Shown here: one piece after another, positions 1,490 to 63,710 of the stretch
Layout of the letters: every line of letters begins with the position of its first letter
How positions within the stretch are numbered: position 1 is the stretch's first letter
Assembly: GCF_000003815.2 (NCBI RefSeq)
Contig: NC_049992.1
Span: 1,706,959 to 1,770,958 of the forward strand
From: Branchiostoma floridae
Taxonomy: Eukaryota; Chordata; Leptocardii; Amphioxiformes; Branchiostomatidae
Direction of reading: 5' to 3'
DNA length: 64,000 nucleotides
Made by a program: the position numbers and the translations under genes
Notes under the pieces: model-generated
Database searches by the model: none
The model's input: the letters and a program-made list of their open reading frames with translations, nothing else
What the model was told of the DNA's origin: nothing

Positions 1490-1614
1490 TTTTTAATGGC
1501 AATGTTGTCTGCACGAGCTGGCCTTTTCTGTATATCAGAATACTGAGATTGAAGGTAAAATGTTAAAGGGACACAAAACAATTTTTGGGAGCCCACTAAA
1601 CATATATAAGTATA

Positions 1615-2606: not shown

Positions 2607-2722
2607 CACAAAGTACAATTCTTACTTGTTTTACATTAGTTTTTTAAAACATGACATAAAACTGTAAAATGCCTTCTATTGTTATACTAGTATTTTTAGT
2701 ATTTCAAACTGTCCAGTAGGAT

Positions 2723-10323: not shown

Positions 10324-11257
10324 GTTACACCCAACACTCTTCAGTGTTTCTTGTAACGCTGACGCATTGGAGGATCTCGGGCCAGTTTGTTCATACACCC
10401 TCAACATATCAATCACAGGGTTTCTCCATTCTGTCCAGAGCTAATTGGCGAATATCACCTTTTTTATCGTATGCCCAAAATATTCTGTTATACGTAATTC
10501 GCTGCTATCATCTTACCTACCGGGGATTACATCAATGGACTATAAATACATTATGACATGTGTCCTGCATGGCATACATAGGAAAATCATTAAAGAATGT
10601 CTAGACGGTAGAAATCCCTTCAATGATTGTAAAACACCTTTTTTATCCCATACTATGCACCATTGTATTGTAGAACTGCAGTTGTGTATCAGTAGAGTCC
10701 ATGCTTTATACCTTGCACAACTGTTGCGCAGTTACGTTACATATTTTTAACATACATGTGTATGGCGTTCTCAAAATCTGCAGTATATTTGTACATACAG
10801 GAGCCAAGGCCTCATGGGATGTCGTTTAACTCGTCTAACAGAAAAGTTTTGACATAATTTTTCGAAAGAAGGGGTCTCTGCATCACACATCAGCAAATCT
10901 CTACTATTTTGTCCATTCCAAGACCAGTGTAGTCTCCACTAGGCCTTCCTGTGGATGGGAGTTATGGCTACTAGCGAAGTGAGTCTGGTAGAGTAGCCTC
11001 CGTCACGGCCTTTTGCGAAATTTTTGTGGATGGGAAATATGCACGATTTTCACCATATGCACGATTTTCACCATATCGCGGCCAGGTTTTACACCGGGAA
11101 GATTCTTATGTCGGGAAGGAAAATGTCAAGGAGGTCTCGTGTCGGCGGACAAAGGGCCGCGAAGGAGGCTACTGGTAGACTGATTGTGAGACCCGCATTT
11201 CTTGTGTTGGCAGATAAAAAGCGGCGCGAAGGAGGCTACAGCTCGAGACTTATGTCG

Positions 11258-14200
11258 TCAGTCCAGGCAGCAGCCGGGCTCGGCGCAGCAGACGGGCGGG
11301 CACTTGCTGCAGTGGTGCGGGTGGCGGCACTCGGTGTCGTTAACGTACGGGCAGCAGTCGAACGGGCAGCTGCTGCCGTCCTCGCCACGGCCACGGTCAC
11401 AGCGGCCGTCGCCACAGTAGGGCTCGTCGTCAGAGCTGCAGAGAGCAGGAAAAATCATGATAATCAGCTAGACAACCTTCCTCTCTTTTAAAATGTGTTT
11501 CTGGAAATATTGACAGTGGCCGTCGCCATAGTAACGCCCACCGTCGGAGCTGCCGAAAATGCTAGTTTGTGTTTCAAAACGTGTTGAAAAGGGAGTGGAA
11601 AGGTCTCTTTATTTAAAACAATATTGAAACAACTACATGATTCTTTCACTGTTGGAAACAACTACATGTAGTTGCAGCATCTGTATATTGACATTATTAT
11701 TGCATGAGGCAAATTTCAGTCTTCGGACTACTGCCTTGTACTTTGTGTGTGTTATTATAAAGCAGCCCTCGTCGACTCGACGGACGAACAACGTCATATA
11801 CCTAAACCTGTTCTAACTATCATCAAAGTTGTTGATTTGGGTTATCAGCATTATGTGATTCTAGATTTCCCAAAGTTCCTGAAACATAGCAGGAGTTTTC
11901 CCTCACCCGTCCCCTTGTGCGGCTGCCAGGGCGGCTCTCTCACAGCGCAGCTCCAGGCACTTACTGTGCAGCCAGCAGAACGCCGCGCCGGCGTAGATGT
12001 ACCGCTTGTCGCACCTGGGGGGGGGGGGGGTGCCGATTAGAGCTGTCCGTTCATTCACTCACTCACTCATTCATTCATTCACTCACTCAGCGCCGGCGTA
12101 GATGGCGGATAGGGGCAGGTTAGAGCAGTCCGTTCATTCACTCGTTCATTCACTCACTCACTCACTCACTCACTCACTCACTCACTCACTCACTCACTCA
12201 CTCACTCATTCACTCATTCACTCACTCACTCACTCACTCACTTATTCCGGTATAGATGTACCGCTTGTCACACCTGTGGTGGATAGGGGCAGGTTAGAGC
12301 TGTCCGTTCATTCACTCATTCATTCATTTATCCACTCATTCATTCATTCACTCATTCATTCACTCATTCAGTACCGACATAGATGTACCGCTTGTCACAC
12401 CTGTGGGATGGGGTGGGGGTGATGGGGACAGGTTAGAGCCATCCATCTTTACATACATTCATTCATTCATTCACTCATTCATTTGTCACACCTGTATGTG
12501 GGTTGCGGGAGTTAGATCACTGTTCTTGTCACTTGGGCCATTAATTCATTCTTCATTCAATCATTCATTCATCTATTCGTCGATGAAGTTGACACCTAGT
12601 TAGGTACTAACATACACAAAGTAGCAGTTACTCAAGCAAATAGATAAAATTTGGAAACGGGCAGACGTTTCTCCGGGACAGCGTCTGCTGTTTTTCGTCA
12701 GTGACTGTACGACTGAGAGTCTTAGACTAAAATTGGATTTGCGTGATCTGCATAATCTCACGCTTGTAATATGTGTAAGAGTATGAGTTAATGGCAACAA
12801 AGCACAACTTGAAATATTTTCCTTATGTATGAAATCTGTTGAACGATTTGTCAAATGTTCTGTCGCTCATCAATCGCAGCCTGTAGTGGAAAGGGGAGTA
12901 AACTAAAACATACCATTGACAAAGAGTAACGGCGTAATATAAAGGGATTTGAGTCATTTACTAGTCGGACGTTGAATATGGTACCTGCGCGTCCTTTTGT
13001 TTCCGGTAAACAATTCTCGTGTTTCGTGAATATATCATGACGCACAGAAGTTCCGTTTACCACCAGTGCACAAACATTTATGCCATGTTGTATATCCGGA
13101 ACGCCTCTTACAACAACATATTCGAATAGAATACTCACAACAGTGGAGAAGTATTTTACTATTTTACTCAAGAAGACATCTTTCCTCGAACCTTAGATAA
13201 GCGGCCAAATCTGAAAAATGAAACGCTATTTTGGCATGCGTTGCCTTAGGTAAAATAAAGGTTGAAAACCGATATAATATTTCAGTTGTTTTAAATTTAC
13301 CATGTCTTTTCCTGTAATGTTTTCTTGTCTATAGTGAGCCGCATATGTTTACTAATATTGATATTTGGTAAGTTTGAAGGAGGGGGCTTAGCATTTATCA
13401 TCGTAGCCGACGTAGGCTTCTTCTATCTTCCCACACATTGTTTATTTCTTTTGTACACTTCTCCGTATATGAAGGCTTCTTTTGTGCAAATAGACCAATA
13501 AACAGAAACACCCTCACCTCTCCCTGACCGCGGCCTGGCCCTCACAGCCCCCGCAGCGGAACGTGCTGACCGGCTCCCCGGCCCCCAGGTCCTGCCCGCA
13601 CGGCCCGCAGTAAGCGCCTTTAGCGGACGCGAGGTACGTGGTCTGGGGGGAGGAGAAAAGAAAAGTATGGGTATGTTATATAGTAGCCGATGATGACATG
13701 TTTCCAGGTAAGTGGTCTGGTGAGAGGGGAGAAGCACAACGTCATGTATTCGCAAGTTAAGCCATGTTCCTCTTTACTTACTCACCTCCCTGGCTCTGTA
13801 GAGTAGCAGAAAATTGGCCAAAATGCGATGGATAATTACCTTCGACAAGAAGGTTATGTTTTCGGTGTGTGTTTATATGTGTGAGTGTATTTGTCGGTGT
13901 ATGTGCGTGTGTGTGTCTGTGTGTGTGTGTCTGTGTGCCAGTGTCTCTCTCTGTGTGTCTGTGTGTGCCAGTGTACTTGTGTGTGTGTGTGTGTGTGCGT
14001 GTGTGAGAGAGAGAGGGTGTGTGTGTGTGTGTTTGTGTGAGAGAGTGTGTGCGTATGTTTGTGTGTGTATCGGTGATTAAGTGTGCATGTCTGTGTATCT
14101 GTGCGTGTGTGTGTGAACGGCATAAAAATGGCATATCAGGTACACGATATGACACGTGCGGTTTTCATGATATGTGAGGATGAGGATTGATATCACTTGT

Positions 14201-14504
14201 AATTATGAGATGTTGTGCGCTATATGTTATGTTGTCCATGTCAAGAATCAGTCAACATCATGAGTATTACGTGCAAATCCTCTAAAACCCCACCAACCTT
14301 GCCGCAGACGGGCTGCCCGTTGTTCTCGTCGCAGTCGTTGCAGCAGACGTAGTGCTGCATGTGCAGCAGCCCGCCATCTTTGAAGTAAGCGCACTGCCCC
14401 TCGGGAGCCTGCTGCAAGTCCTCGGGAACCTCCCCGTCGGCTCCCCGACACCGGCCGGGCAGCGCGGCGGCCGCACAGAGAACCAGGAGCGCGAGGTGAG
14501 ACAT
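11258..14504 (-). CDS. Secreted cysteine-rich protein, four exons (paralogue B)
   Basis: Exons 14298-14504, 13518-13642, 11907-12014 and 11258-11435 total 618 bases (205 residues) with consistent phases 0, 2, 2. The ATG at 14504 opens a signal peptide (MSHLALLVLCAAAALPGRCRG). Exon 1 ends with HYVCCNDCDENNGQPVCGK, exon 2 carries AYCGPCGQDLG and FRCGGCEGQ, and exon 3 carries AFCWLHSKCLELRCER. Exon 4 has a CGDGRCD...SSCPFDCCP module and a C-rich tail (CPPVCCAEPGCCLD). CGxGxCD...CPxDC modules occur in many extracellular proteins. Most cysteines pair with those of paralogue A (16372-18256). I recognise no named family; an extracellular disulfide-rich protein is the safe description. Exon GC is much higher than in the flanks. 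Extra copies of exon edges lie in its introns. Confidence 0.85.
11511..11555 (-). pseudogene. Duplicated 5' edge of paralogue B exon 4
   Basis: On the - strand, ttcggcag is followed by bases encoding SDGGRYYGDGHCQ, matching the acceptor and SDDEPYCGDGRCD start of the real exon 4 (11398-11436). The first cysteine is Tyr and the rest of the exon is missing, so it is a partial copy. The AG acceptor is kept. Confidence 0.75.
11988..12485. repeat. Compound array: exon 3 edge plus (CATT/CACT)n, about four units
   Basis: Units of roughly 110-150 bases repeat the 5' edge of paralogue B exon 3 (gtagatgtaccgcttgtc followed by cacctg, i.e. an acceptor plus exon on the - strand) and then gttagagctgtccg and a CATT/CACT tetranucleotide run. 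Edge copies lie near 11992-12018 (the real exon), 12093-12106 (partial), 12252-12276 and 12378-12402, with a fragment at 12483. The longest tetranucleotide run is about 12130-12242. Confidence 0.8.
12500..13500. other. Intron 2 sequence of paralogue B without other features
   Basis: Ordinary AT-rich intronic sequence; no exon, RNA gene or clear repeat was seen. Confidence 0.5.
13681..13737 (-). repeat. Duplicated 5' edge of paralogue B exon 2, acceptor kept
   Basis: The - strand reads ctcaccag then ACCACTTACCTG, matching the real exon 2 start at 13642 (ccccccag then ACCACGTACCTC), with a similar pyrimidine tract. It lies about 60 bases upstream of the real exon. Confidence 0.65.
13865..14120. 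repeat. GT-rich microsatellite
   Basis: Imperfect (GT)n mixed with gtct, gaga and gcgt blocks, within intron 1 of paralogue B. The long ORFs here are composition artefacts. Confidence 0.9.
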
Positions 14505-14527
14505 CGCGGAGACGGCAAAAGAGTCAG

Positions 14528-14640
14528 GGAGCTATAGTACGACTGGATACGGAGAGGGCAGAAGAGACTCGGGGCTATCGTACGACTGGATACGGAGAGG
14601 GCAGAAGACTCGGGAGCTATCGTACGACTGGATACCGGGC
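14528..14640. repeat. Three tandem ~52-bp units in the 5' leader of paralogue B
   Basis: Units contain gtacgactggatac; the first two continue with ggagagggcagaaga, while the third ends at ggatac. They lie just upstream of the ATG at 14504. They place the ATG about 180 bases from the conserved promoter block, against about 40 in paralogue A. Confidence 0.75.
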
Positions 14641-14667
14641 TACGCGTCAATGCGAGACGCCACGCAG

Positions 14668-14758
14668 GATTCTGTCGACTTTGTAAAACTGGAAACGTGG
14701 CACGATAACTTACCAGGATGTGCCGCTATCAAATCACTCCGCGTGCTTACCTGAAAAC
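14668..14758 (-). promoter_or_regulatory. Conserved upstream block of paralogue B
   Basis: Shared blocks with paralogue A, in the same order on the - strand: GCGGAGTGATTTGA, CACATCCTGGTAA, TGCCACGTTTCCA, then GTTTTACAAAG where paralogue A has a TATA box. The function is inferred from conservation between the two genes. Confidence 0.55.
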
Positions 14759-14759
14759 A

Positions 14760-16260
14760 TGTCATCATCGGCTACTAACGTTAGACAGTTACACCCACAC
14801 TGTATACACCTGCGTTTCTATTTTTCGGATAGTTCCATAGCCTTTTTAACGCCGTAGGTGCAGTGGGTTGTAATCCATTGTGTCTAGGGCACGGTATTGG
14901 ATGCCGCAGTCCATCCCTCCATTTCACCTCATTTTAATCTCCAACTGAAGTCAGGTACCCATTTCTACACCTGGGTGGGGTGAGGAAGGTCGTGTCAAGT
15001 GCCTTTCCCATGGCCAAGAGCAAAAGGTCAGTAGCACGACAGGATTTGAACAGAACTGTCTTCTGGGCCAAACACCCTGTAGTTATGCAACACGACCCCA
15101 CTTTTGCATACGTATTTTAATTAATGAAATGATCACCATTATCAATAGGAGTGAAGTGAGTACATGTACGTAACTAGGAGGTTTGGATGCCTATGGCCAA
15201 TGTGCGACGACGGGAGAACTCTGTGTTCTCAATGAAACAAGGATATGCTGTTGTGAAAATCGCGTAGACACCTGTTTATGTATAACTATATAAACCGGTA
15301 TCACTCAGGTGCCATTGTGAACCACAACAATGCCGGCCAATATTACTTTCAATTGTTTTCTTTTAGATTGGCCACATACAACTACTTTTTTGGTACAAAA
15401 TACCTTTTGAAATTATCCTTAAGCTTGTTGGACTGTCACAAATACGTAGAAGTCATGTCTGCCGTATTTTCACATGAGATGTGACATGGAAAGCGTTCTA
15501 TAATCAGAGCCTACCACTTTGTAGTTTTTTAAATCAAAGACGGCCCGGTTATGACATGGCACTCGGCTACCTTTTAGATATCATGATGGTACACAGGACA
15601 CACCGAGAAACCTACACCAGAGGCTGCGACCAAAGATTTGGCAGATAACTTACGAACTTCAAAGATAAGGAAAGGTTTTTAAACGTTTTGTTATACTTAA
15701 TATATTGCATCATAATGTAATTATGGAACAATCAAGGATGAAACTGAAAAAAAAAAACGAATTATACTTGCTGCGTCTCTTAAGTAGTAGTAAGTAGCCT
15801 CTTAAAAGATGATGATAGATGATGATGATGAAGGATAAAACAAATCCAATTTCTGTCTCTGTACAACCGTTCATCGATCGCCATCTACTTAAAAGATCCT
15901 TAAATATTCACATGATAGGAGACATTGTTTCGACTGGCACTGAAAAATGGTACTTTGAGGGTCCAATTATTCAGGCTAGTTAGGAAGTGTTGGGATGGGT
16001 AAGCCTCACCTTCTGTGGGGACTGGATAAGGTGACATAATGTTAAAGCGAATGAACGTAGTATAGAGACAAAAGGTGTTCCTTCTGCTACATGCTGGAGT
16101 TTCGTCCCCATTTGCTCAGTAGCTGTTATTTTTGTGTGTTTCCGCATACTTTGGCCACAGCGACAGCAAATGAGCACAAATCTATGAACATAAATTGCTT
16201 AATATGATAATTTACCAAGTACCGAAAATAGCACAGAGAAAACATAACTTTCTTGGCGAA
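14760..16260. other. Spacer between the two cysteine-rich genes
   Basis: No gene seen. It contains an A9 tract near 15749 and a short gatgat run near 15809-15832. Confidence 0.5.
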
Positions 16261-16266
16261 GGTAAT

Positions 16267-16272
16267 TTTATT
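16267..16272 (-). terminator. Poly(A) signal AATAAA of paralogue A
   Basis: AATAAA on the - strand about 100 bases after the stop codon at 16372-16374. Confidence 0.6.
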
Positions 16273-16371
16273 CCCCTTCCATATGTTCGGCTAAGTAAAT
16301 TTCTGTATTAGGATGGCAGGTTAACGTTAACATTTCTGGCTTGTCAATGCCATGCTTATACTGACATTTCC

Positions 16372-18256
16372 TTAGCCCATGCAACAGCCAGGTTGCGAAC
16401 AGCATAACGGTGGACACTGGTAATTGCAACCGCGCCTACACGTCTCCGGGTTGTACCTGGGGCAGCAGTCGAAAGGACAGTTGTAGTGGTCTTCGCCGGG
16501 ATCACACTCGTCGTTCCCACAAAATGCATCATACATGTAACTGCGAACATATATGAAAAAAATATTTAACATAGATTGTGCGTTTTGCCTCGTGCACCTG
16601 AAGAAAGCTTGTTCTGTGATTTTGAACTGATTCTTTTTTGCAGTATAGACTTTTCGAGGTACGATAAAAAGTCTTTTTCTTTACATATATTTAAAAAAAG
16701 TTCACAACGAAACAATGCATAAGGAGCCATGCTGTATCGTGATGACAGATGTTTGTTTACCTTAGACTTGAAAAAGTTTTAGATTGCATTCTACAGGGAA
16801 GCTTGTTAACATGTTGTACTTTCTATTTAAGAAAAGGGGAGAAAAAATTTATGTCACATGTATTTGTCCCACCTGCCACTTTGCAGCAAGGCCTGTTTAT
16901 CTTCTCCATCTTGGGGGAAAAGCCTCTTACAGCGCAGTGCAAAGCAATCAGCCCAGACCCAGCAAAATCCCTTGAAAACCCACCAGTACCTCCTATCGCA
17001 CCTGTTGGTATGTGTTGCGAAAGCGTCATTGATAATCCAGAAAGTTAATACAATATATTTTCGGCATGACCACACAGTTGTGCAGATACAGTAGGTTGGT
17101 GAGACTAGAAGTCCTTATAATTTCCTTCTAGCCATAGTTGCAGGATGTGACCGACAGAGCCTCTACTTATTACGCTTACATGTACATGTATTATTCTCGC
17201 GGATGTCATCAATATAAACAAATCAACATGGTCTTATCATAGAGCACATACAGATTTGGTTTAACTGAATTACAGTAATAGAACAGGTAGGATTATATAC
17301 TGTACTACAATCCACCAACGACAATTTGTAATAGAGACATAGGTTCGAACAAAAAAGCATGTAGCTCTTGTAGCGGGTGTCAGAACCCATCTGTAACGTA
17401 CTAGTGTAGCCAATAATGAATCACACGGACGGAAGTATCTATGTCTAAAATGTTTACCTGTATCTGCCCTAGATGATAAGTTGCGGCTAATAAGTAACAG
17501 TTCCACAATTTCTAAAAATTTCAAGAATATACTTGAATACATTCTACTTCTATTTAGGTTTTCATCACTCACACGGCCTTCACTGTAGTTTGGCCTGCGC
17601 AGCCCCCACAGTCAAAGGGCTCGTTCTTGCTCCGGGCAATGCCATCGTCTTCCCCGCATTTACCGCAGTAGTCCCCATCACTGGCTTTATCGTAGACAGT
17701 CTGTAAGACGAAATGTATTGATCAATATGAACATGTATATTGATCGATACATTTCTTCCGACGCAAAGACATATCAAGTTGCCTAAAGTCGCTATCAATA
17801 CATAGATACTAGCACAGTGCACAACACGGGTCCAAACGAGTTTTGCGTCGAAAGGTTTACATCAAGTTTCATACCAGCCCCTTACTGTCTGTAGCGTCTT
17901 GTGCAAATGTGTAGCCCAGGCGCTATAGAAATAGAAATGGGTACCGCTTCTATATATTTGTTAAAGACGCACGGTCAACTTTCACTTTTTTGCTTTGCTT
18001 CCCGAAAACCGTTAGGTCTGGCGAACGAGGTGATACGCACAGCGGATTACATGTACAATGTTTTTCTACTCACCCCGCCGCATACGGGGTCTCCGTCATT
18101 CTCGTCACAGTTGTTGCAACAGACATAGAAGTGCAGTTTCTTCGGGCCGCCCCAATTGTAATAGCAGCATTGCCCCTCAGGGGGATTAGCAGCGCCCAGG
18201 CACTGGCCTGGGAACGCGGCGACCACACAGAGTACGAACAGCGCTACAAGTGCCAT
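16372..18256 (-). CDS. Secreted cysteine-rich protein, four exons (paralogue A)
   Basis: Exons 18074-18256, 17573-17700, 16873-17001 and 16372-16540 total 609 bases (202 residues), all GT-AG, with the same phases as paralogue B. Signal peptide MALVALFVLCVVAAFPGQC. Exon 1 has EGQCCYYNWGG and YVCCNNCDENDGDPVCGG, exon 2 YCGKCGEDDG and FDCGGCAGQ, and exon 3 the aromatic stretch CDRRYWWVFKGFCW. Exon 4 has FCGNDECDPGEDHYNCPFDC and a tail CPPLCCSQPGCCMG. Conserved spacing of paired cysteines against strong divergence elsewhere fits an extracellular, fast-evolving family. A TATA box (18288-18298) lies about 35 bases before the ATG. No known family name can be given. Unlike paralogue B, no extra exon edges were seen. 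Confidence 0.87.
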
Positions 18257-18281
18257 CGTCCAGAAAGTGTGACGTGGCGAT

Positions 18282-18378
18282 ATGTGATATTTATAAAACT
18301 CAAAAGTGGAAACGTGGCACTGACATGTTACAAGGATGTGAAGTTTTGAAATTACTCCGCCTGTATACCTGTTCCTGT
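18282..18378 (-). promoter_or_regulatory. TATA box and conserved promoter block of paralogue A
   Basis: The - strand carries TTTTATAAATA (18288-18298). Upstream lie TGCCACGTTTCCACTTTTGA, CACATCCTTGTAA and GGCGGAGTAATTTC, each matched at the same relative place upstream of paralogue B. Confidence 0.65.
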
Positions 18379-18379
18379 A

Positions 18380-21300
18380 TATACTATTGCGTTTTCTTTC
18401 TTTAATATAACACTGGTACCGGTTAGTAGGGCATTCCTCTTTTCATTCCAAGACATTGGTTTGGTACGGATTCAAGGTGGTCACATTTATCTATTGAAGT
18501 AAAAAGCGCCTTTCGAAGTTAGCCATTGTGGACAGTTGCCAATACCCAAAAAAGTCGTGTCGGACGTATCTGTATGTGAGGTGTGATGTGTCTGAGGTCA
18601 AGACCGCATACCTCCACAATGCAAGATGAAAAAATCGGTTTGTCGCTATTGAACGATAAATTAACCCCGTAATTATAAAGACTATGTATTTTACAGAAAA
18701 TTGGAAGAAGGAAAAGAAATTAAAAAGAGCGCACGTCGAAATCTTTCATTCAGGCTCTAGTTAACATTAGTAAGAAATGTGCAACTGGAAAACATGATGC
18801 AAGTTACTGAAATTCCTATTCATCATATGGCACATGGAATGCTTCTTATAGTAATAAGTTAGTAGTACACGACATGTAACGAAATACAAGCTGTAAACTC
18901 TCGTACATGGTCTCCGCCATTTTATGTATAATTAGCACGCTCCGCCCAAACCGCAATGTTTCCTAGCGTAGTTAATAATGGGTTAGTGAAGCTTTTTGAC
19001 TCGGATTCAAATCCAATTAAGTTTATGCCATTTCTTTTTTCTTGCGTTGTATTCGTAGTTGAAATGTTCCTTTACATACGTTTTTGTAAGCCCTGAAAAG
19101 TTATGAAACGAACAACATTGCATAAACCGCTCAATGATATGACAACGCCGGAGGCTACAACCTGTTGCCAAAACAGTCTTTTGGACATGCACGTAGTGAG
19201 GGAATGTTTACTTTTACTTTTCATAGCGATCCAACAGGATTTCGCTCAGCTCTTATGTAACTTGAAGCGCAAACATGAGTCATTATCATCCGGCAGATGA
19301 AAAGAGCTAGCATTGACTTTGTCAGTGCTTTATACTTTTACTTTCCCTTGAATAGCGCATCAAAAAAGTGTCTCTTGCCAAATGAAGTCCTGCAATTATC
19401 GAGTGACTGAATGTTGAGCTATATGGGGAGAATTGATTTGATTTATTTGGGGTCATGTAAAAGTCAATTAAAGCCAGACAATTTGCTGCAACGAAGCTAT
19501 TAGTGTAATAATAGAATAACAGGAGTTATCTTGTCTATGTTCAGGCATAGAAAGGGTTGAAATATTTATTACATTTGAGTTGTGAACATCTGCTCCCATG
19601 TACATCAGTTATTGGACTGGAAAATGAGGTCCTTGAATCCCATTTTAAGTGGCAATGATTTCTCACCCAGTGAATTCACCAGAAATTGGATAAGAGTTCT
19701 TGGAGCAGTACATGCCAGTTCTATGCTGTTCTCAGTGGAAGTACCATGCGAATCTCTGATAAATACAGTCTTCATTTACAGCAGTGAAGGAAACAGACAC
19801 AACACAATTACCTTGCAAAAAATATGTTAAATTCATCAAGTATTTTTGCAATGAAGACCATCAAAATATATTGTGGAAGATCGGTAACATTAGCTAAAAC
19901 ATACACAGAAACTGCACTTCATTTGCATTCGATAGTTGCATTGCATTTGCTCTATTCTATCTATAGCTCACCTATAAAACTACACTATCTCTAATTGAAC
20001 ACGAAGTTGATTAAAAAGAAAAAAAAAGATAGGCAATTCATCCTCAAACAATTCTATAATGATAACATGTCTAAAACTGCTCATAGTTACACACTATCAG
20101 AACTTACGTATGCTGCAAGTCATCAACATTAGTATAACCTTATATCTGGCAGGACACGCCTGTCCAACACCCCAAGCCATCTGTGTACCTTAATAAAGGT
20201 AGAGCCATTGGTGGCTGATGGACACTGTTTTTCATACTGTCTTGCTACTGGTAAATCTCAAATCTGCTTGGAGGTTACAAAACCTACCTAATATTTCAAC
20301 CAACAAACAGGTAACTAACTAAGATAAGGCACCCAATACGTATCTAAGAATGCCGCATTGTTTGTTTGATGACAAGAATGTTGATCTTAGGTTTGCAAGA
20401 GCAAATGCATGGGGAACAGTACTAAGCTCAGTATCATGCACAAATGCAGAATACATGTAAGACATTATATAGACATAATTATACATAATTATTAAATTTC
20501 CACATAACAGAGATTTTTTGCTTCAAAACCTCTCATTTTTTTCCAGAAAGAACAACTGCATTAAGATCAGGTCTCGACTTTCAGAACCAAAATCTGAACC
20601 ATCCTAAGCTACATAATTAATGAACAGGTAACTACATGTAAGGATCTACATCTTAGGTAAGACATCCAGGTAAAATATGCCAAATAAGATCTAGCTTAAA
20701 CTCAAGGCCTGCTTTTACATTAAACTAATTTGTAAATGATATGCTGGCTTGGTTTGAATATATTGTATTACGTGTTCTGTCATATCTATAGCTATCATCC
20801 TCTTATCAAATTACATATTAGCATAAGACATCACATTGCATTGTAATAATCTTCCATATAACCGATCATCGCAGTAAAAACTGACATGGTTGCATTGTAT
20901 TGTCAATATTATCTACAGTAAAGAAAACACCTGGAAACCATGGCAACTGCCCTTTTAAGCAACATCAATTTTCATGGCCATCATTACAACTATCACTAAC
21001 CTATGAGTATCAACAACGTTATTACCTACGTAAGGCACTTCACCGTAAGGCACAGTACTGTACAGTCTATCCATGAACTACATAGCAGCCACACCTGTTG
21101 CAATCTTAAACATTTCAGATGTACGAGATTTGCACAATTCGTCCTTCATATTCCTGATCAGCCTACATGTTGGGTTGGACTTTCCTGTAAGACATCTTCC
21201 TTCAGCAGGACAGCTGCCCGATGCACAAACATGTGGGGGGATGAATAAGAAATAAGGTGCATGACTCAAATTATGGGGCATGGCTTTAAAGTCTAAAGCT

Positions 21301-22910
21301 TTTATAAATGTCTACCAAAATTCAACTCATTGTGCTGATTACTTTTGCACCTAGTAACGTTAGGTGAGAGAGACAAGGAAAAAATGGGCATGATGGAGCT
21401 GTGACCTGAGGTGTGCGGGTCAACTTGCTCTGCTGAAAGTCAGATAATCACTTCTATATAGTTGAAATACGAGGAGAATCTTCATCAAACATTTTCAAGA
21501 TGTCTTCTAAGATTTCATGGCAAACTCCACCCACACAGGTCACAGTTGTTTTTCTCGCCACTCATCTTCTGATTTTCAAAAGCACGCTGACTTTAAAGAA
21601 ATGACTGCAACCATTTGAATATGGTGGGTATTGATGAAACTATTGTATATATACAGTAGAAGCCGTTTAATCGCACGGCCTATTTGCCAGTGAATTTGGT
21701 GTAATTATCCAGCTGGTGCAATCATGCGAAGTTATCTAGCTGACCGCACCGGTTTGGGATTCCGTGCAGTTAACAGAAGTGTGCATTAATCCGATGTGCA
21801 ATTAACTGGCCTCCACTGTATCATGTTCCACAATCTGAGTTGTGCACCTTATTTTTCTGGGTGAGGTCATGAACTTATTGATCACCCCTCGCACATGTAC
21901 AGTGCCACATACGCTGTATGCTGCTTGTTTCTCTGGATATGCATAAAATAGAGCTTTCTAAACACCCTACAAAAGGTCTACCTTAAAACATATTTCACTA
22001 CAATCTCTATATGATTTGATCTTGTGTAAAAACATTTTGCACTTTGCAACAATATCAATTCTTGGTCATAGCTGCCTCCTCACATATTGTGCAAACTGAA
22101 GAGAATCTTTGTTGAACACATACACAGACCTGTACCTACCCTTATGGGTATGGTTACACATATTTATAAAATATCTACACTTACCATAGCAGTAGATACC
22201 TGATATAGAATAAAGCAGTCAAACACTCATGTATGGCTTGAAGCATTTAGAATTACAGTATGAGATAAAAATTTAATGCAACAATTTTTGTTGGTTTCTG
22301 CCAACTCTTCAGTCTTATTCCCTGCATCAAAGAGCTGCAGATGTTTGCATTCCTTTTTGCTAATTACTGTTACTTACTTAATTACTGTTACTTACTTAAT
22401 TACTGCATCCAGTATTTTGTTGATGCCTTACATCAGGCTGATTTTGATATCAATTTGTTGTTTCTAAAATACTTGCATCTATATTTGCATTGCATGTGCA
22501 TAGTGGTAAAATAAAAATTGAGAAAAATACACTTTTTGTAAAAGCTATCAAAGATTGCTTTACCCAATCTTGTACAATACAATACAAATGTACTGACAGA
22601 GTTTGCTACAAGACACTTGTCACTTATTCTGCAGAATGCGTCACACTGTTTTTCATCTGACCAAAGATTTCAGATGAACTTGAGATTTTCAGGCAACAAA
22701 AGCCTTCGCTGCAAACTTGTGGTCAACAATTTGAGAAAATATGGCAAAATTTTCCTGACTGTTGTAGGAAGACAATTAATGTCATGTAGCATCAATTTTG
22801 GATGGAGAGTTTTTGTCCAACCTTATCACTTAATTTCTTTATGTGCTGTTCATGAAACTGGCACCAATCTGGGAACAGCATTCTGGCTTTTCCACTAGTT
22901 CACACTTTCT
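18380..22910. other. Gene-free AT-rich stretch
   Basis: No exon with convincing splice sites was found on either strand. It probably holds the 3' untranslated region of the gene at 22975-41473 at its right end, plus intergenic DNA. The only small repeat noted is attactgttacttactta, about 2.5 copies at 22363-22403. Confidence 0.5.
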
Positions 22911-22917
22911 GCTTCTT

Positions 22918-22974
22918 ACCTCCTCCTGAAGCCATGCTACCATGACCTCCTGACCCTGAATATGACCCCTGACC
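22918..22974. repeat. Duplicate of the last exon's tail
   Basis: cctcctgaagcca-g-taccatgacctcctgacc repeats the end of the terminal exon at 22984-23018 about 65 bases away. It lies in the 3' untranslated region. Confidence 0.7.
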
Positions 22975-25900
22975 CTACTTTAACTCCTCCTGAAGCCAGG
23001 CCACCATGGCCTCCTGACCTTGGGAAAGGTCACCTCTCGTGCACAGGAGAACCTTGCTGAAGTCGTCTTGAGTCGTGTTCTGCACTAGAAGCTCCAACAA
23101 CTCGTTACACTGCAGAAATAAACAAGATAAAAACACAATTCAGAATATCTCAAAATTATGTGAAATAATACTTTATCACATTGGGGATTGCCAATGAAGA
23201 GAAATCCAAGGAAGGAATATGTAAAACTCTGAGTGTACAATTTATTCATTCAGTCAGCCAAGGTTGCTGTGGCTATTACACGTATGTGACACTGTAAGTT
23301 CCTATCCACTATGTTGGTACGATGTTGATACTAATTACACCACATACCTTATGTGTGAGGAGTACCAGAGGGAGTCAGCCTTGCACAGCTGTGTGTGACC
23401 AGTGATAGGGGATATATAACAGTACCTTATGTGTCACCAGGACCAGAGAGTTGGGAGTCAGCCCTTCCGTAGGAGGAACCTTGCACAGGTGTCTCAGCCG
23501 AGGCCCGTCCACAAGTAGCGTTCGGCCGCTGAAACTCTTCACATCCGACAGGGAAGCACTGCTGTGGCTGAAGGTACACTGGGAGAGCAGAAGCACAAGT
23601 AGATACATGGGAGGCATCAGTACAAACACAAGAAACAGAAGCACAAGTAGATACATGGGAGGCATCAGTACAAACACAAGAAACAGAAGCACAAGTAGAT
23701 ACATGGGAGGCATCAGTACAAACACAAGAAACATCAGAACAGCTGCTGTGGCTGAACGTGCACTGGGAAACACACAGGAAACATCAGTACAGTTGCTGTG
23801 GCTGAACGTACACTGGGAGACCAGAAGCACAAGTAGATACATGGGAGGCATCAGTACAAACACAAGAAACATCAGAATATGCAGCTTGTACTCTCCGGTA
23901 CAAACCCTGTGTGTTTGCAGTGAGCTTACTGGGTTACTGCAGCAGATGTGCTACTAGTATTCAGTACAACCCTGGTACTATTGAGTACAACCCTGGTACT
24001 ATTCAGTACAAACCTGGTACTATACAGTACAAACCTGGTACGATGCAGTACAACCCTGGTACTATACAGGTCTAGGTGGCGACAGACTATGGTCACGGGA
24101 CAAGACGACCACAAAAACTGGTATCCATGACAACTGTACTAATCATGAGGATGGTAACCATGACAACGTACCTGGTCGGAGACCTGTATGGGGTGTGTGT
24201 GAGTTTTGGACAGCTCGACCCCTGACCCCGGGCTGGGCAGCCGCACCTCCAGTAGGATGTGGTACTGTAGGGGGGGGGGGGGGGCAATTAGGGAGGAATT
24301 ACAACAAGTACAGTAACATTTGCAAGTAAATAATGTTAATCTGCACATGGTCTAGTCTAACCAACTGTAGGGGGGGGGGGCATAGAAGGAATAAAGAATA
24401 AAATCTTAACATAAGCAAGCAAATGTTTACCTTCACAAGGAGGGGTTAACTGACTTGTTCCCAAATGTTTAATGCTCTATAAGGTATTACTGAGAAATGC
24501 ATCACCAGGACAGGGTTATTCCAGGTCAAGCATCACAGTGCCTACTCAGAAGGGCCACCTATCAGCTGATCACAAAACTGCAGCACCGTGTTCATCTTTT
24601 ACTTGCTTTGGATGGAAGGCATTGTTTCCCTAGGATGTACCTGTTTGGGAAGTAAGATGTTTCCCCATCTAAGGCTCACCTATTTGGGCAGAAAGACGTT
24701 GTTTAAGACGTACCTGCTTGGGAGTTGAGACGTTGTTTAAGACGTACCTGTTTGGGAGTTAAGACGTTGTTTAAGACGTACCTGTTTGGGAGTTGAGACG
24801 TTGTTTAAGACGTACCTGTTTGGGAGTTGAGACGTTGTTTAAGACGTACCTGTTTGGGAGTTGAGACGTTGTTTAAGACGTACCTGTTTGGGAGTTAAGA
24901 CGTTGTTTAAGACGTACCTGTTTGGGAGTTAAGACGTTGTTTAAGACGTACCTGTTTGGGAGTTGAGACGTTGTTTAAGACGTACCTGTTTGGGAGTTGA
25001 GACGTTGTTTAAGACGTACCTGTTTGGGAGTTGAGACGTTGTTTAAGACGTACCTGTTTGGGAGTTAAGACGTTGTTTAAGACGTACCTGTTTGGGAGTT
25101 GAGACGTTGTTTAAGACGTACCTGTTTGGGAGTTGAGACGTTGTTTAAGACGTACCTGTTTGGGAGTTAAGACGTTGTTTAAGACGTACCTGTTTGGGAG
25201 TTAAGACGTTGTTTAAGACGTACCTGTTTGGGAGTTAAGACGTTGTTTAAGACGTACCTGTTTGGGAGTTAAGACGTTGTTTAAGACGTACCTGTTTGGG
25301 AGTTAAGACGTTGTTTAAGACGTACCTGTTTGGGAGTTAAGACGTTTCCCCATCTAAGACAGACGTTTCCCCTCCAGCTGGAGTACATCTGCAGTTCTGC
25401 CGGCCCCAGCCAGGTGGCGCCGTTGTTGTTGGAGCACGAGTTTCCGCCGGAGTTGGTCCGACTCCTTTTTACACACGGCCCCTCCGCCCGCGGCACCAGG
25501 GAAAGGTCCGCCTCTCGCGGGGAACCCTGCGATATAACATGGACATGTTTCTTTTACCTTATAGAAAAGAGTCAGATGAAACATCCACAGTCTCTACTAG
25601 GGCTGGGTACCGGTACAGAAAATTCAGGTCCAGGTCCGGTTCAGGTCCAGAGGATCAGGTCCAGGTTCGGACCTGAACCTGGACCTGATTCAGTATGACT
25701 CATGCCAATGGTCCATTTCACTACATAGAAATTTGTTTGGTGGAGTATTAGACTTACACTGGCGTCTTAAAATCCTACAACGCTAACTGCACCTGTACGA
25801 TTGACTGTAAAACTTGGTAGAAATGACTATAAACTCTACTCTACTCCACTCTTGTTATTTTCTTCCACCTGCAAGCGCCAAAACGTGTGAATGCCTGATG

Positions 25901-28900
25901 AAATAATATGTTAATTTTCTAACCGGTCCAACATCCGGTCCACCTAATTTTTTCAGGTCCGGTTTTTCTGGACCGGTCCAATAAGAAAAACCGGTTTTGT
26001 ACCGGTACGCTGTACCGATACCCAGCCCTAGTCTCTACTATTAAATGTACTTTTCCGTAACCTCAACAACGGGCTGTAAGTGCCAAAAAACCTCCCACAT
26101 CTATATTCAAAGTTGGACTCAGTGCTTGAATGTATACTGAGATCTTCAAACTTGGGTAAGTCCCAATTTCTTCAGGGTTCAGGCCATGTCAAGTTCAGTC
26201 CTCTTCCATATAACATTATTGACCAACAGACGAACTTGACCTACGTTAGCATCGAGTTCCCCCGTGGTTCCGTCGGCGTGCACGGTGAGGTCAGAGTGCA
26301 CGGTGAGGTCAGAGTACACGTTGAGGTAGCACATGCTCAGTACTTACGTTAGCATCTGGTTCCCCCGCGGTGTCAGAGTGCACGGAGAGGTCAGAGTGCA
26401 CGGTGAGGTCAGAGTGCACAGTGAGGTAGCACATCACGTCCGTCAGTTGGAATTGGCTGCTGTTCTTCAGACAAACCTCCAGCCGAACTGCCTCCTCCTC
26501 TGCCACCAGCCGCACTGCCTCCTCCTCTGCCACCAGCCGCACTGCCTCCTCCTCTGGCACCAGTCTGCAGTCTGGGGAGTTATTCACACTAGTTAGTATC
26601 ATTCCTGCATCTATCCACCCATCTGATCTGGAACTGGTCACTAATACTGTACAGACAAACCTCCAGCCGGACTGCCTCCTCCTCTGGCACCAGTCGGCAG
26701 TCTGGGGGAGTTATTCACACTAGTTAGTATCATTCCTGCATCTATCCACCCATCTGATCTGGAACTGACTAGTACTGTACAGACAAACCTCCAGCCGCAC
26801 CGCCTCTTCTTCTGGCACCAGTCGGCAGTCTGGGGGGATTATTCACACCAGTTAGTATCATTCCTGCATGTATCCACTCATCTGTTCTGGAACTGACTAC
26901 TACAATGTAGTACTGTACAGACAAACCTCCAGCCGAACTGCCTCCTCCTCTGGCACCAGTCGGCAGTCTGGGGGATTATTTCACACTAATTTAACATCAT
27001 TCCATCATTTATCCATCCGTTACTGAAGCACATGATTTTCTGTTAGCTGGCACCCCTTATATTCCTTCCCATAAATACCCAAGCTGTGTGGTATGACGAC
27101 CCCCTGGATTGCTGTCTATAGACTCTGGTTCCATGAATGTTCATACAGCTCTGACCAGGTCGCCTGTATTACCTTTTACTAACCCAGCCCTTACTAATGT
27201 ACCTGGCTCTACCCACAGACTTCTGATCTCTGCAGTTTCTCATCACAATGGGTATTCTAAGCCTCATCAGCCTTACACATGGGTTAGGACCGTGGGGTCG
27301 GAAACTTAATGTTAGAATTTGAATCCTGGCATGTAACTTTGCATGCTGCTGAAAGGGCTGCAGTCCCCGGGACGGGCCCCTAAGGACCACAGTGTGATGT
27401 TTATTCATTTCTGATGGCCACAAGTGCAAGGGAAGTAATACGGTCCAACAACCATGATAAATTGCACATTAAAATCATACGGGGGCCTATGACAATGTAA
27501 CCACATTACAAGTAGGATTGAGACATGAATTCCCATGTCATCCCGACTCACCGATCTCCAGACTCTTCAGCACAAACTGCTCGATGATGGAGTTCACCGT
27601 CTGCACCAGCTCTGCGTTCGTCTGGAAGTTTCCCAGGAGGTTCTGTAAGACATTAAACATTGTCTTCCTTAGTTACAGAAGTTCCCTAGAAGGTTCTGTA
27701 AGACATTAAACATTGTCTTCCTTAGTTACAGAAGTTCTCTAGGACAGTAGAAGGTTCTGTAAGACATCAGACATTGTCTTCCTTAGTTACAGAAGTTTTC
27801 TGTTGGTCTGGAAGTTTCCAAGGAGGTTCTGTAAGACATTAAATATTGTCTTACTTAGTTTTGTGTCAGCCTAGAAGTTTCCTAATTCTGCAGAAAAACA
27901 TCAATTTGCTTGTAGGAAGTCTTTTGTGAAAAAGCTGTTTGAGAATATGAAGATCCCAAATGGATTGTAATGCATTAACTTAAAACCATACCTCCCAAAA
28001 CACAGATCTAAACAAGCCATTAACTGTGTTGTAATATATCATCATGTAATCAGGTACTAGGTAGGTAATACATCTACATTGTACATGCATATCATAATTT
28101 GCAGTAGTGCATACTTTAGCATCAGCATATTTCTTTTTGATGTGTTTTTATTTGCTAATTTGCAGGAAGCCATTGAGTAATAAAGTTTGAACGGTGGGGA
28201 AATTCCGGTGTATACCTAATTGTAATCAAGAGCAGATTTCCCGCCACGCGGCAAACATGTAACGCAATCTGATTGGTCCAAACATTATTACCCGACAGAC
28301 AACGGAAAACAAGCTTGTCATTCTCCTAGGCACGGTCAGACCATTTGGTTATATTGTTTTGGCCTCCGTGACCAGCTTCTAAATCTAATCATGCTCCGCT
28401 AAGTAGATAAACTCTTCATTACGATGAGATGGGAGAGACGCTACCGACGTGCACTCGGATAATTGCACAGCTGATTCTCGTTAAGATTTACAGAAAACTT
28501 TCCCCCGTGAAACACGACTTACAGTTGCCGCTGTTCCCAGCATTGACCTCCCCCCTCCCCCGTGAAACACGACTTACAGTTGCCGCTGTTCCCAGCATTG
28601 ACCTCCCCCCTCCCCCGTGAAACACGACTTACAGTTGCCGCTGTTCCAAGCATCGACCTCACCCCCTCCACCGTCTTCTGCATGGAGCTCATCATGTTGA
28701 TCCTGAATGTGGAAATAAAAAGATTTTCAGTCAAACATAAAATCTGAGACTCTTTACCACTGCACCCTCTGTTGTTGACCTCTGCCTTTTTGACTTTGTG
28801 CACAGAGGCTTTGTTTTGGCTTGTTGTGAATAAATTGAGAACAATGAAATAAAAATTGAAATACAGATCTATTAAAAAGCTACCTGTTCAAGAAAGAATT

Positions 28901-31900
28901 TGTAAGCAGTGCACAACGAATGCAGTGGAAAATGAAACACATTTTATTTGTGAATGCCCCCAATTCGAAGCCGAAAGAAAAAGGCTATTTGATAGAGTGA
29001 CCGAAATCACACCAACATTTTCATTGTTAAAAACGCCACAAAAGATTCTCTTCCTACTAACATCAAGGGATCAATCTATTATAGAACACATGGGGCATTT
29101 CATTTTCAAATGTCTTCAAGAAAGAAGTCAAACCCTGTAATAGTTACGTAGACTTAGTACCCCATTATGTATCGTATGTATATTCATCCACTTGATATTT
29201 GTATGTTAGAATTTAGTTTATCTACATGTATTCAGACCACATTTATTCATCTCATGTAATTAGTCATTCTTTTCTTGCAATTAGCCCAATGGGCATGAAT
29301 TTGCAATAAACTTATTATTATTATTAAAACAACAAAAGTACATGGACATCTACATTTCTACTTTTCATAAGGTAATAAGATATGCAAGGAAACAGAAATG
29401 GAGAGATTCTTACAATGTTTATTGACTGAAAAAACAGTCAAGAAAAGCTTCTGTCCAGGTTCAGGCCTGGAGTTGTAAGAGAAAACAATCCGTTATCATG
29501 TCCATGGAGTGAGGGAGCCCAGGAGAGAAGTACCACAAAGATAGATCCCCGTCCGTCTTTAGAAGCCGCATTCTCCACCGTCTCCCTTCCTCAGGGACTC
29601 TCATCTGTAGCTCACAAACTTACAGTCTGTAAAACTCTACATCTATCAAGTGGAACACCCTATCCAGGGAAAATCAACAGACTGGGTGTAGATGGATTAT
29701 AATCTGCACAACACTTCTTCTTTTTCTTTTTCCCTATTCTAAAACCCTTTCAGAGGGAGAGAGAGAGGCGCCGTGAAGACGGCAGCCAGCCCACGCGAGG
29801 ACAATAAGCCGTCTGGTAGACTCTAACATACATCACGAGGAGGGAAGAGGAACTAGACAATCTTTAGAACAGATCTGCACATCTGCCAGGGATTTCCCTA
29901 AAGCCCTCCGTACATCTCACTTTGGCTGAGCCATGCATATTGAGAGAGCAGGGAATCTCTCAACTCCATCCAGGCTGCTGCTGGATTTGTTCCCAATAAG
30001 CCGTGGGCCAAACTCTGCTCAAGCAGCTCAGGGTGGGATAAGGCCCATCGATCCTCCGTCTGTTACCCAGAAACGGGGTTAAAGAAGAGAGCTTCAAGTT
30101 CAGGAGGATAACAGGTTTGACTTTGAGCTGGCAACTTCTTTGACAGATGTACTTGGATTTGACAAATGTATTTGACAAATGTACTTGTATTTAATAGATG
30201 AACTTGGCTTTGATAGATGTACTTGGCTTTGATAGAAGTACTTGGATTTGACAGATGTACTTGGCACAGTGTTAAGATATAGTATTTCCATCAGTGAGGA
30301 TTACGAGTTATTCTGGAGGCATTCATTACAAGCATCTGCACCAAGGACAGGTGTTCAGCACCAAGGACAGGTGTTCAGCACCAAGGACAGGTGTTCAGCA
30401 CCAAGGACAGGTGTTCTGCACCAAGGACAGGTGTTCAGCACCAAGGACAGGTGTTCAGCACCAAGGGCAGGTGTTCAGCACCAAGGGCAGGTGTTCAGCA
30501 CCTAGGGCAGGTGTTCCGCACCAAGGGCAGGTGTTCAGCACCAAGGGCAGGTGTTCAGCACCTAGGGCAGGTGTTCCACACCAAGGGCAGGTGTTCAGCA
30601 CTAAGGACAGGTGTTCAGCACCAAGGGCAGGTGTTCAGCACCAAGGACAGGTGTTCAGCACCTAGGACAGGCGTTCAGCACCTAGGGCAGGTGTTCCGCA
30701 CCAAGGGCAGGTGTTCAGCACCAAGGGCAGGTGTTCAGCACCTAGGGCAGGTGTTCCACACCAAGGGCAGGTGTTCAGCACCAAGGGCAGGTGTTCAGCA
30801 CCTAGGGCAGGTGTTCCGCACCAAGGGCAGGTGTTCAGCACCAAGGGCAGGTGTTCAGCACCTAGGGCAGGTGTTCCACACCAAGGGCAGGTGTTCAGCA
30901 CTAAGGACAGGTGTTTAGCACCAAGGGCAGGTGTTCAGCACCAAGGACAGGTGTTCAGCACCAAGGGCAGGTGTTCAGCACCGAGGACAGGTGTTCAGCA
31001 CCGAGGACAGGTGTTCAGCACCAAGGGCAGGTGTTCAGCACCAAGGGCAGGTGTTCAGCACCAAGGGCAGGTGTTCAGCACCGAGGACAGGTGTTCAGCA
31101 CCGAGGACAGGTGTTCAGCACCAAGGGCAGGTGTTCAGCACCAAGGGCAGGTGTTCAGCACCAAGGGCAGGTGTTCCGCACCAAGGACAGGTGTTCAGCA
31201 CCAAGGGCAGCTGGTACAAAATAATCACCTCCAAGGAGCTGGTACAAAATAATCACCTCCAAGGAGCTGGTACAAAATAATCATCTCAGTGATCCATCAC
31301 TTCACCACTTCAATTCACAACCTCACCATGAATTACCGAGTTTTAAATCTCAAAGGAATAGAAATGGGAATTTCAAAACTATATCTGCATACAGTTGCAC
31401 CTCACTGAAATGCTAATCATTACCGCATGTCAGCAGCACAGTCATGCAGGATTGTACACCAGCTGACAATAGGGCTAAGTACCGGTATGATGTACCGGTA
31501 AAAAAAAATGTTTTTTTTCTCATTGGACCGGTCCAGAAAAATCGGTGGACAGGATGTTGAATCTATTGAAAAATCAACAGATTATATATATATATATGAT
31601 CAGGCATTCACAGGTTTTGGGGCTTACGTTACATACTGGTCGAAGAAAATAAGAAGAGCAAAGTAGCGTAGAGTCTATACTCTCTATAGTCCTTTCTACC
31701 AAGTTTTCCAGTTAATCTTACAGAGGCACTTAGTCTAGGAATTTAAAATGCCAGTGGGAGTCGAATACTCCACCAAACATATTTCTTTGTTGGGAAATGG
31801 ACAATTGTTTTGACTATCATCACTAAAGTCCATTCACAAGTTTTCACATACAATCAGGTCCAGGTTCATGTCCGGACCTGGACCGAACCCTCTGGACCTG

Positions 31901-34900
31901 AACCAAACCTGAGTTTTCTGTACCGGTACCCATGTGACCCCTAGCTGACAGAGATAAAAACACAGCCTGACCTGATACGACACAGCAAATATTCTTCCTA
32001 ATTTGTCAAATTCTGGGAGTCAGTAGGAATTTTTCTACCAAATAATAACATAGAGATGGCAGCATTCGTGCTACATGTATTTAAGAACTCTACTACTAGA
32101 CTACTGTAACTTAGTGTAAGTTAAGATATCCTGTTGCTAGTAATACACATGTACTATATACAAATGTAGCAGTGAGTAAAACTTACATGTTCCTGTACCT
32201 GGGATGTCTATAGAATGATTCCTTAGAGATCCTGTAAGTATTTCACCTGCAGGAGTTGTCCTGACATGACATGACGTTACGACTGTTGTTCTAACAACAG
32301 TAAATAATCGGCTGTTGTTCTAACAACAGTAAATAATCGCCTGTTGTTGACACCAAACATCCCTGACCTGGGGTGACCTTGAGAGGGTGAGGCAGGGAGT
32401 GTTCATTTCAGGCCTGGGGGGGTGGTAGGTGGGGGGTCCCTCCAATCACATGGAGCACCATGTGTCAGACCCACCCAAATGTCGGGCCTTTCTACTGCAG
32501 TTACCTGTTAACATAACAGCAGTTACATCTTTCACATGAAACCTTACCTGCTTAAGTTCAACACTTGGTTCACATGTGTTCTTCTGGTCAATGTGTAATT
32601 GATGACTATTAGAACATGGTTCACATAAGTTTTGAAAGTGTATACAGTAACATGTCAGTAAGAGGGCACCGTGGAATGTTGACAGTTCAAATTTGATAAT
32701 AAACGACATTTGCACCTGAACTGAAGGTAGGCCTACGCACGGAGAAGTACAGGGCGAGACGTGAGGAGTGGTAAACACAGTTTTGGCCTGACATACTCAA
32801 CTCAACGCCCTTCAAGCACCGGAGGAATGTCTGAAGGTCGAACGTGACTAGCGGCATGTTGTGATGACATCATCACATTGTTTACACCACTCAGGAACTG
32901 CTGTCATGCTGACATCACTATAAGTATAAAAACAACAGCTTTCACAGTAAAAACTACTGTACATGTTTATAAACAATAAGTCCTGAAGCCAAGGAGGACA
33001 AGCCATGTAGGAAAACTGGTTATCTAAACAAACACATTGACTTTGACTTTATTTGGATTGCGACAATACTATACAATATTCTGCACCAGGCATGTAGACA
33101 CATGTAGTTACTAGCAGGTTATACCAACTTGAAGTCAAGTTGTAGTGGAATGTCCATTCCTCAACAAAAAAAATTATTAGTCGAAAATTTGGTTGAGTCC
33201 GCAATTACAGGTCAGCTTTGATCCGAAAGATAACAAAATCCTTCACCAGGCTTCATCACCAGCATGATGGTATCTACTACATGCCATAAATGTGCCCCTG
33301 TCAGTACACAGACTCTCATGCTTAATTTGATTTGACACTTTTACAACTGCAGACAACAATAGTTACCGTTGGGTGTTTTGAAAACATTTGTCTGGTTGGC
33401 TAGTAACTACAGGTTCATACATTATCCCTTACTAAGTTACTGAAGTACTAGTCTGGAAGCTACACTGTTCTGGGGCTTACAATCTGCTCATTGGCTCTAA
33501 TTTTGTAGAACCAACATGCTCCATGGTAACCTGGTCTGTGTAGCCATGGAAACAGTCTGGCTTCCAGGCTTCTTCAGGGCCAACATTCACCATGGTAACC
33601 TGATCTGTGTAGCCATGGAAACAGTCTGGCTTCCAGGCTTCTTCAGGGCCAACATTCACCATGGTAACCTGATCTGTGTAGCCATGGAAACAGTCTGGCT
33701 TCCAGGCTTCTTCGGGGCCAACATTCACCATGGTAACCTGATCTGTGTAGCCATGGAAACAGCCTGGCTTCCAGGCTTCTTCGGGGCCAACATTCACCAT
33801 GGTAACCTGATCTGTGTAGCCATGGAAACAGTCTGGCTTCCAGGCTTCTTCAGGGCCAACATTCACCATGGTAACCTGATCTGTGTAGCCATGGAAACAG
33901 TCTGCTTCCAGGCTTCTTCAGGGCCAACATGCACCATGGTAACCTGGTCTGTGTAGCCATGGAAACAGTCTGGCTTTAGAGCCAACATGCACCATGGAAA
34001 CTTGGCCTCACAGTGCAATTGACCCTTCCAGCCGAACATCATAAGCCCCGCCCCCTGTTCGATCTCGGGTTCTATTTCAAAACCTCGGTCAAAAACGGCG
34101 CGAGTTGCAAAAACATGGCCGCCGCCGCATTTAAGCTGAGAATACCGACTGACTTCGGTTTAGCTTTTTGGGCCCTTGGCAGATGTAAAGCTGGGTACAT
34201 ATATATGCGGCAGGCTTTCTACAGTGTTTGTTGCATGCATGACAATTGCATACATGCTAAGGAGAAAAACCAAATTAAGAAGAAAGCAGCTTGGTCACGG
34301 AGAGGGAGCTTGTACCACATGCCAAATATAAGACCCTAATACAAAGTCCGCTAGTGCAGAGTGCCGTCTCTTCTGCGTATACTGCTTTACATGTACATAC
34401 TGCCCAGGAACAAATTAATGATATGTAGCGCCAATCCTTCGCAAAACAACTATACTCAGCCGGTTAAGTCTTCAATAAAAAAGGCATAGCATTTTTCTTT
34501 GGCCATTCCTACCCCACTAGGACTGCTTTTGACCGAGTATTCGGAATAGAATAGGGGGTTCTATTTGTTCGATATGGCGTTCGGCTGGAACCTGTGAACA
34601 GTCTGGCTTCTAGTCTATTGCACAGCTGTTGCCATTGCAACTGCCACAAGGCCGAGGTTGGACAAAAACAACATGACCAGCCCCTGACTACACAGCCTCA
34701 GCCATTTACTGTGCAAAAATGGACCTAGAAAAATATGAATGAGAGCATTTCCTGAAATACATTATCGGGAGTAGCACTAGCAGTTAATATGTAGAAACAT
34801 GCATCTAAATTGTTTTTGTGCATTATCAATGGTTTTTCTGCTTTATCAACTTGTATTTGAAACACTTAAAGTCTTCGTTCCTTCATCAGCAAGGAGCCTT

Positions 34901-63660: not shown

Positions 63661-63710
63661 GGATTTCGTTGAACAGGTTTTGACGGAGAGACCTGCAAGT
63701 GTAACAGGAA

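Follow-up and report, generated by a model that had tools for sequence, protein, structure and literature searches.

Local tandem copies of exon-intron borders in two genes of an amphioxus locus

Introduction

Why would the ends of exons, splice sites included, be repeated next to so many exons of one locus? The question is raised by a 64,000-nucleotide stretch of the Branchiostoma floridae genome (NC_049992.1, positions 1,706,959 to 1,770,958; hereafter the window, numbered from its first letter), which holds three minus-strand genes, here called A, B, and C. In amphioxus, a tandem duplication that takes in an exon-intron border is known as a mirage, a term from work on Adh3, and mirages have been reported in Adh3, troponin C, the globins BflGb6 and BflGb9, and PGBD5 (PMC3087553; PMC3902484, also our sources for the Adh3 work). 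In these reports mirages are described gene by gene (PMC3087553; PMC3902484). A search of the open-licence literature, with subscription papers mostly outside it, found no genome-wide test of mirages.

Duplicated exon borders

Extra nearby copies were found at 10 of the 26 splice junctions of the three genes, with three of six in gene A, none of six in gene B, and seven of 14 in gene C. We used a lag search anchored on the exon border, and gapped cases were recognized by eye. The duplicated junctions are the acceptors of exons 2, 3, and 4 of gene A, the acceptors of exons 3, 4, and 7 of gene C, and the donors of exons 2, 4, 5, and 7 of gene C. Gene B, which served as the control, had no copy at any of its junctions in the same border-anchored search, and testing of the exon 1 donor of gene C also revealed none. 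AG is kept in all 12 extra acceptors and GT in all 24 extra donors (36 of 36), although anchoring the search on the exon edge itself favours their retention. Five of the ten duplicated junctions lie inside arrays as called by Tandem Repeats Finder (TRF), and the rest are composite, gapped, or weaker local copies; the border arrays have TRF periods of 34, 53, 55, 100, and 128 bp. A preliminary description of this DNA had claimed that exon edges are locally duplicated with their splice sites, that the 5' edges of exons 2, 3, and 4 of the nearer cysteine-rich gene (gene A) are copied, and that most copies retain GT or AG. These claims and the copy counts were confirmed, except that the exon 5 donor of gene C, described as about 19 copies, proved to be a large array as claimed but with 21.

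The exon borders are independent of the repeats because they were fixed by annotation in genes A and B and by orthologs in gene C. Gene A (11258..14504) is a cysteine-rich gene with exons at 14504-14298, 13642-13518, 12014-11907, and 11435-11258. Its 205-aa product is 100% identical to B. floridae LOC118429969, and this annotated protein agrees with use of the exon-joined splice sites. Gene B (16372..18256), 2 kb from gene A, is a cysteine-rich paralog sharing the four-exon plan, and its 202-aa product is 100% identical to B. floridae LOC118431010. Gene C (22975..41431) has eight exons, located by ortholog alignment and, for exon 1, by tblastn (41431-41373, 28702-28633, 27642-27552, 26571-26348, 25526-25326, 24264-24172, 23578-23426, and 23109-22975); a 12.7-kb intron 1 separates exon 1 from exons 2-8 (28702-22975). 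Its product can be aligned along its length to B. lanceolatum Hypp5795 and to B. belcheri LOC109471715 (P0001 and P0002), with gaps in exons 4 and 5. These two are the only relatives of gene C among the matches listed, which include no B. floridae protein for it, and the protein has no match in Pfam or PDB. The query for the relative and Pfam searches and for the main ortholog alignment was the product without exon 1 and the last four residues of exon 6.

The copies are most numerous in gene C and are given here on the minus strand, with a slash at the junction; they come from the border search unless stated otherwise. The exon 2 donor lies in an array of three 55-bp units (28501..28674; also TRF) with ACT/GTAAGT in each, both extra copies carrying the exact used GTAAGT. 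The exon 3 acceptor occurs four times (27621..27878), with TTACAG/AACCT at 27642 (used), 27695, 27756, and 27828, and the exon 4 acceptor also four times (26533..27015) in a unit of about 128 bp, with CAG/ACTGC at 26571 (used), 26701, 26829, and 26967. The exon 4 donor, used at 26347/26348, has one intronic copy at 26244, a lag of 103 (26242..26434), and the exon portion of this duplication contains 18-bp in-frame repeats. The largest array belongs to the exon 5 donor (24638..25354), where the used site at 25325/25326 is followed by 18 copies spaced 34 bp apart, then by two distal ones that are divergent, at 24679 and 24640. All 21 units contain AGGT, and 19 of them read CAGGTACGT, i.e. CAG/GTACGT; the used GTACGT is repeated exactly in 18 of the 20 extra donors. 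AGGT is absent from the duplicated exon 2 and exon 4 donors. By eye, a GGGAAAC repeat flanks the distal exon 5 copy and a G-run is present at exon 2, which are possible microhomologies at break points. The exon 7 acceptor forms a composite array of three (23562..23873; partly by eye) at 23578 (used), 23762, and 23812. The exon 7 donor is duplicated with gaps (23340..23444; by eye), reading CATAAG/GTACTG at the used 23425/23426 and CATAAG/GTATGT at 23347. The tail of exon 8 is likewise present twice with gaps (22914..23016; by eye) and is copied past the stop codon, with the QGQEVMVAWLQEEVR copy at 22958-22914.

Gene A has the exon 2 acceptor twice (13635..13726), with the extra copy at 13716 and a lag of 74; the exon 3 acceptor three times (11987..12481), at 12014 (used), 12273, and 12400, with a microsatellite within the units; and the exon 4 acceptor twice (11435..11550; partly by eye), at 11435 (used) and 11549, a lag of 114. 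Two further repeats are located at this gene. The sequence beside the exon 2 acceptor copy (13683-13715) recurs inverted 1 kb away at 14750-14786, upstream of gene A, with a longest exact run of 21 bases. A 43-bp unit is repeated three times at 14507-14635; two bases separate this array from the start codon downstream of it, and the first coding exon thus adjoins a tandem array at its 5' edge.

The copies might be assembly errors, such as two haplotypes placed in tandem. Amphioxus is very heterozygous, and the window contains two N runs (721 N in total), though neither is within genes A, B, or C. A globin mirage had been misassembled in the draft genome, and the copy number of the PGBD5 repeat differed between two assemblies, but the authors of the PGBD5 study report that re-sequencing confirmed the repeats. 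In the window, divergence of the extra copies from the used edge is 1 to 26%, they occur at many edges, and joining of haplotypes would not yield 18 copies at 34-bp steps. We therefore regard assembly error as very unlikely.

Excess over chance and origin of the copies

We propose that the border copies of this locus, which are amphioxus mirages, probably result from untargeted tandem duplication in a repeat-rich genome, which is tolerated at exon borders. Untargeted slippage or unequal exchange, the likely source of the minisatellites of this genome, would also duplicate exon-intron borders. The duplication would be tolerated there because the copy attached to the exon body likely remains the one that is spliced, and border duplication is thus predicted to be harmless. 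The extra sites, each with a short exon piece and with no second splice site about an exon's length away, would be ignored. A duplication spanning a border would escape selection, whereas one within an exon would survive only as a multiple of three. Once formed, the arrays likely grow and homogenise. In support of this explanation, the exon and intron sides of the border have been copied about equally well: identity to the used border is 287/340 (84%) on the exon side and 269/340 (79%) on the intron side, in gapped counts over 17 of the 36 extra copies with the exon 5 array represented once. From ungapped counts it had seemed that older exon copies are recognizable only through the conservation of exons, an effect that mostly disappears in the gapped counts.

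The alternative is that duplication is targeted to exon ends, for example by transcription- or splicing-linked breaks or by the base composition of borders, so that borders are duplicated more than introns. Local duplication is in any case common in this DNA. A local duplication score of at least 16 was reached at 21% of positions in the real window and 0.03% in block-shuffled sequence, so the copies are real, yet duplications are frequent throughout the window. Outside gene B, which is free of arrays, the array density is 0.85-1.7 per kb, and intron 1 of gene C contains 17 arrays, none at an edge. The preliminary description had assumed that chance should rarely hit exon borders; given this coverage and array density, chance alone would be expected to hit 5.5 of the 26 borders.

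In the position test at score 16, nine of 26 junctions were hit against this expectation under a circular shift of the whole window (P 0.10), and nine of 25 against 4.8 under a local shift (P 0.04). At thresholds from 14 to 20, P ranged over 0.10-0.33 for the whole window and 0.04-0.19 locally; the result weakened with stricter thresholds, and six of 26 junctions remained at 20. An earlier score with strict mismatches gave six of 26 junctions and 18% of positions. A copy of the exon 6 donor of gene C, obtained with an uncapped score, was rejected as a false hit from alignments extending into distant arrays, and the capped score was used instead.

We also placed one repeat unit per array at random on the collapsed sequence. 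This unit test seems fairer, as tandem arrays would grow by insertion. It covered TRF arrays in or beside genes A, B, and C with a score of at least 50 and a period of at least 10, with simple repeats and overlapping rows dropped; the exon 7 acceptor array of gene C gives no hit in it because TRF splits that array. Several results weigh against the untargeted explanation. In the unit test, five of 22 arrays include a junction, where 0.99 were expected (P 0.002), and in exons 2-8 of gene C alone, five of eight against 1.31 (P 0.003). When whole arrays were placed at random, seven of ten in exons 2-8 of gene C reach an exon edge or the stop end against 3.6 expected (P 0.01). At one threshold the local position test also gave a P of 0.04. 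Enrichment of borders over introns is not expected from tolerance alone, so either some targeting or a locus rich in duplications by chance is needed. Moreover, we infer both the neglect of the extra sites and the origin by slippage.

The 5' side of exon 4 of gene A also speaks for targeting, as it is copied in B. floridae and duplicated in frame in one record from B. belcheri. Other observations point away from it. The position test gives P values no lower than 0.10 for the whole window and of 0.04-0.19 locally, and the paralogous gene B has no copy. In gene A, two of six arrays reach an edge against 1.7 expected (P 0.55), a count that does not include the array at 11158-11436 over the exon 4 acceptor and the stop, which lies outside the tested region. 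All P values are optimistic and post hoc because the locus was picked for its striking repeats. The unit test thus supports a local excess at exon edges, the whole-window position test does not clearly show one, and whether border duplication exceeds chance is uncertain. This window alone is compatible with junction-targeted duplication as well as with untargeted duplication and tolerance. The latter is the simplest mechanism and accounts for most of the pattern, and the unit test leaves room for targeting, which we consider rather unlikely.

Consequences of using the extra splice sites

Could selection maintain the extra sites, either as decoys or for alternative splicing? The retention of AG or GT in every copy would fit such a role, as would the exact used motifs in both exon 2 and most exon 5 extra donors of gene C, although the copies were found by an edge-anchored search. 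If the extra sites were used one at a time, 35 of 36 would shift the frame or introduce a premature stop; the sole exception is the exon 7 acceptor of gene C at 23812, which would add 78 residues. Of the 36 copy spacings, 13 are divisible by three, about the chance rate, whereas both arrays inside exon 4 (27 and 18 bp) are multiples of three. Spacing without frame constraint and the damage predicted at nearly every site fit a pattern of unused copies. Inspection by eye revealed no in-frame splicing route from exon 4 into its own distal copy, and a weak in-frame route may exist from exon 5 into its own. In classical experiments with duplicated splice sites, the results point to the extra sites being ignored. 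For published mirages, Adh3 data and reverse transcription PCR of globins suggest regular splicing (PMC3087553). The proposal of decoy selection in the preliminary description is contradicted by these damaging outcomes and by spacing that ignores the frame, and we judge it highly improbable.

Turnover of exon ends

The border arrays also bear on the coding sequence at exon ends. In exon 5 of gene C, none of the last 16 exon bases or first 18 intron bases differs between the used edge and the five intronic copies that follow it. The distal copy of this exon reads VSLRWGNILLPKQ, and its end is nearer to FLPKQ and CLPKQ of the orthologs than the used LTPKQ is. The intronic donor copy of exon 4 encodes LTVHADGTTGELDAN, which matches B. 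lanceolatum at 15 of 15 residues, whereas the used end reads HSDTAGEPDAN. The used exon 4 also contains an internal 27-bp in-frame triplication (26479..26563, minus strand), which is missing from both orthologs and from its three intronic acceptor copies. Because the exon 4 and 5 intronic copies match the orthologs better or lack the expansion of the used exon, some of them look like fossils of older exon ends.

At mirage edges 23 of 108 residues have changed, compared with nine of 96 at the remaining edges (Fisher P 0.02). Generally faster protein change at mirage edges was nevertheless rejected; we claim no general effect because the two ends of exon 4 supply 18 of the 23 changes, and without them the comparison is five of 80 against nine of 96. 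In B. belcheri, the gene A record P0004 carries two duplications that keep the frame, of 29 and 23 residues, placed at exon junctions 2/3 and 3/4, with junction positions taken from B. floridae; the duplications are absent from a second B. belcheri record, P0006. Exon ends might form a mutational frontier, in which border arrays rewrite coding ends and CAG/GT units act as zero-length exons for recursive splicing and seed introns, but we hold this idea to be doubtful.

Other elements in the window

Apart from the three genes, the window contains several mobile or repetitive elements. At 377-3328, a plus-strand DDE_Tnp_4 transposase with HTH_Tnp_4 is accompanied by a minus-strand open reading frame (ORF) with YqaJ and PHD-like regions, the PHD match being below the Pfam cut-off; we take this element to resemble ISL2EU-type DNA transposons. 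At 61455-63998, there are minus-strand zinc-knuckle-like, reverse transcriptase, and recombinase-like ORFs, with an integrase SAM-like match below the Pfam cut-off, and this element presumably resembles a DIRS or Ngaro-type retroelement. The regions 9028-10078 and 36839-38477 have related 30/31-bp tandem units, as seen by eye, which suggests a dispersed repeat element carrying its own tandem arrays.

Comparison with known systems

Both the phenomenon and the idea of intron gain from it were already known, and this locus is a dense further case. Intron gain or turnover from such repeats was proposed in 2010 for amphioxus globins (PMC3087553), and mirages could supply raw material for new introns. 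The tandem duplication of AGGT segments is a model of intron gain (PMC3443670). The exon 5 array of gene C resembles this model, as all of its units hold AGGT and those with CAG/GTACGT could in principle serve as both acceptor and donor. Unlike in the model, the duplicated segments here are borders of existing introns, and intron gain from them is a proposal, no new intron having been recognized at this locus. The 27-bp and 18-bp arrays of exon 4 extend the protein in frame like coding minisatellites within exons, but they adjoin border-spanning arrays whose units, at 100 and 128 bp, are not multiples of three.

The locus bears on whether introns are gained, and protein ends changed, through tandem duplication of borders. 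With a mirage-free paralog near an affected gene, it also offers a setting in which to ask how some 20 donor copies in a row would be ignored by the spliceosome. The new details are the older exon 4 ends kept in intronic copies, the exon 5 edge that equals its next five copies, and the junction duplications in B. belcheri.

The closest known system is the published mirages themselves. As in those, tandem repeats here cross donor and acceptor borders in the same genus, genes A and B confirming a cephalochordate genome. The units of 34-128 bp are within the published range of 10-160 bp (PMC3087553; PMC3902484), many copies keep AG or GT, and the array ends are less homogenised than the middle. 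The locus probably differs from the published cases in density, with seven of 14 junctions of a single gene duplicated, and it differs from them in having a 21-copy donor array and, 2 kb from a gene with mirages, a paralog that lacks them. It further differs in that used exon edges have been altered while the intronic copies retain older coding sequence.

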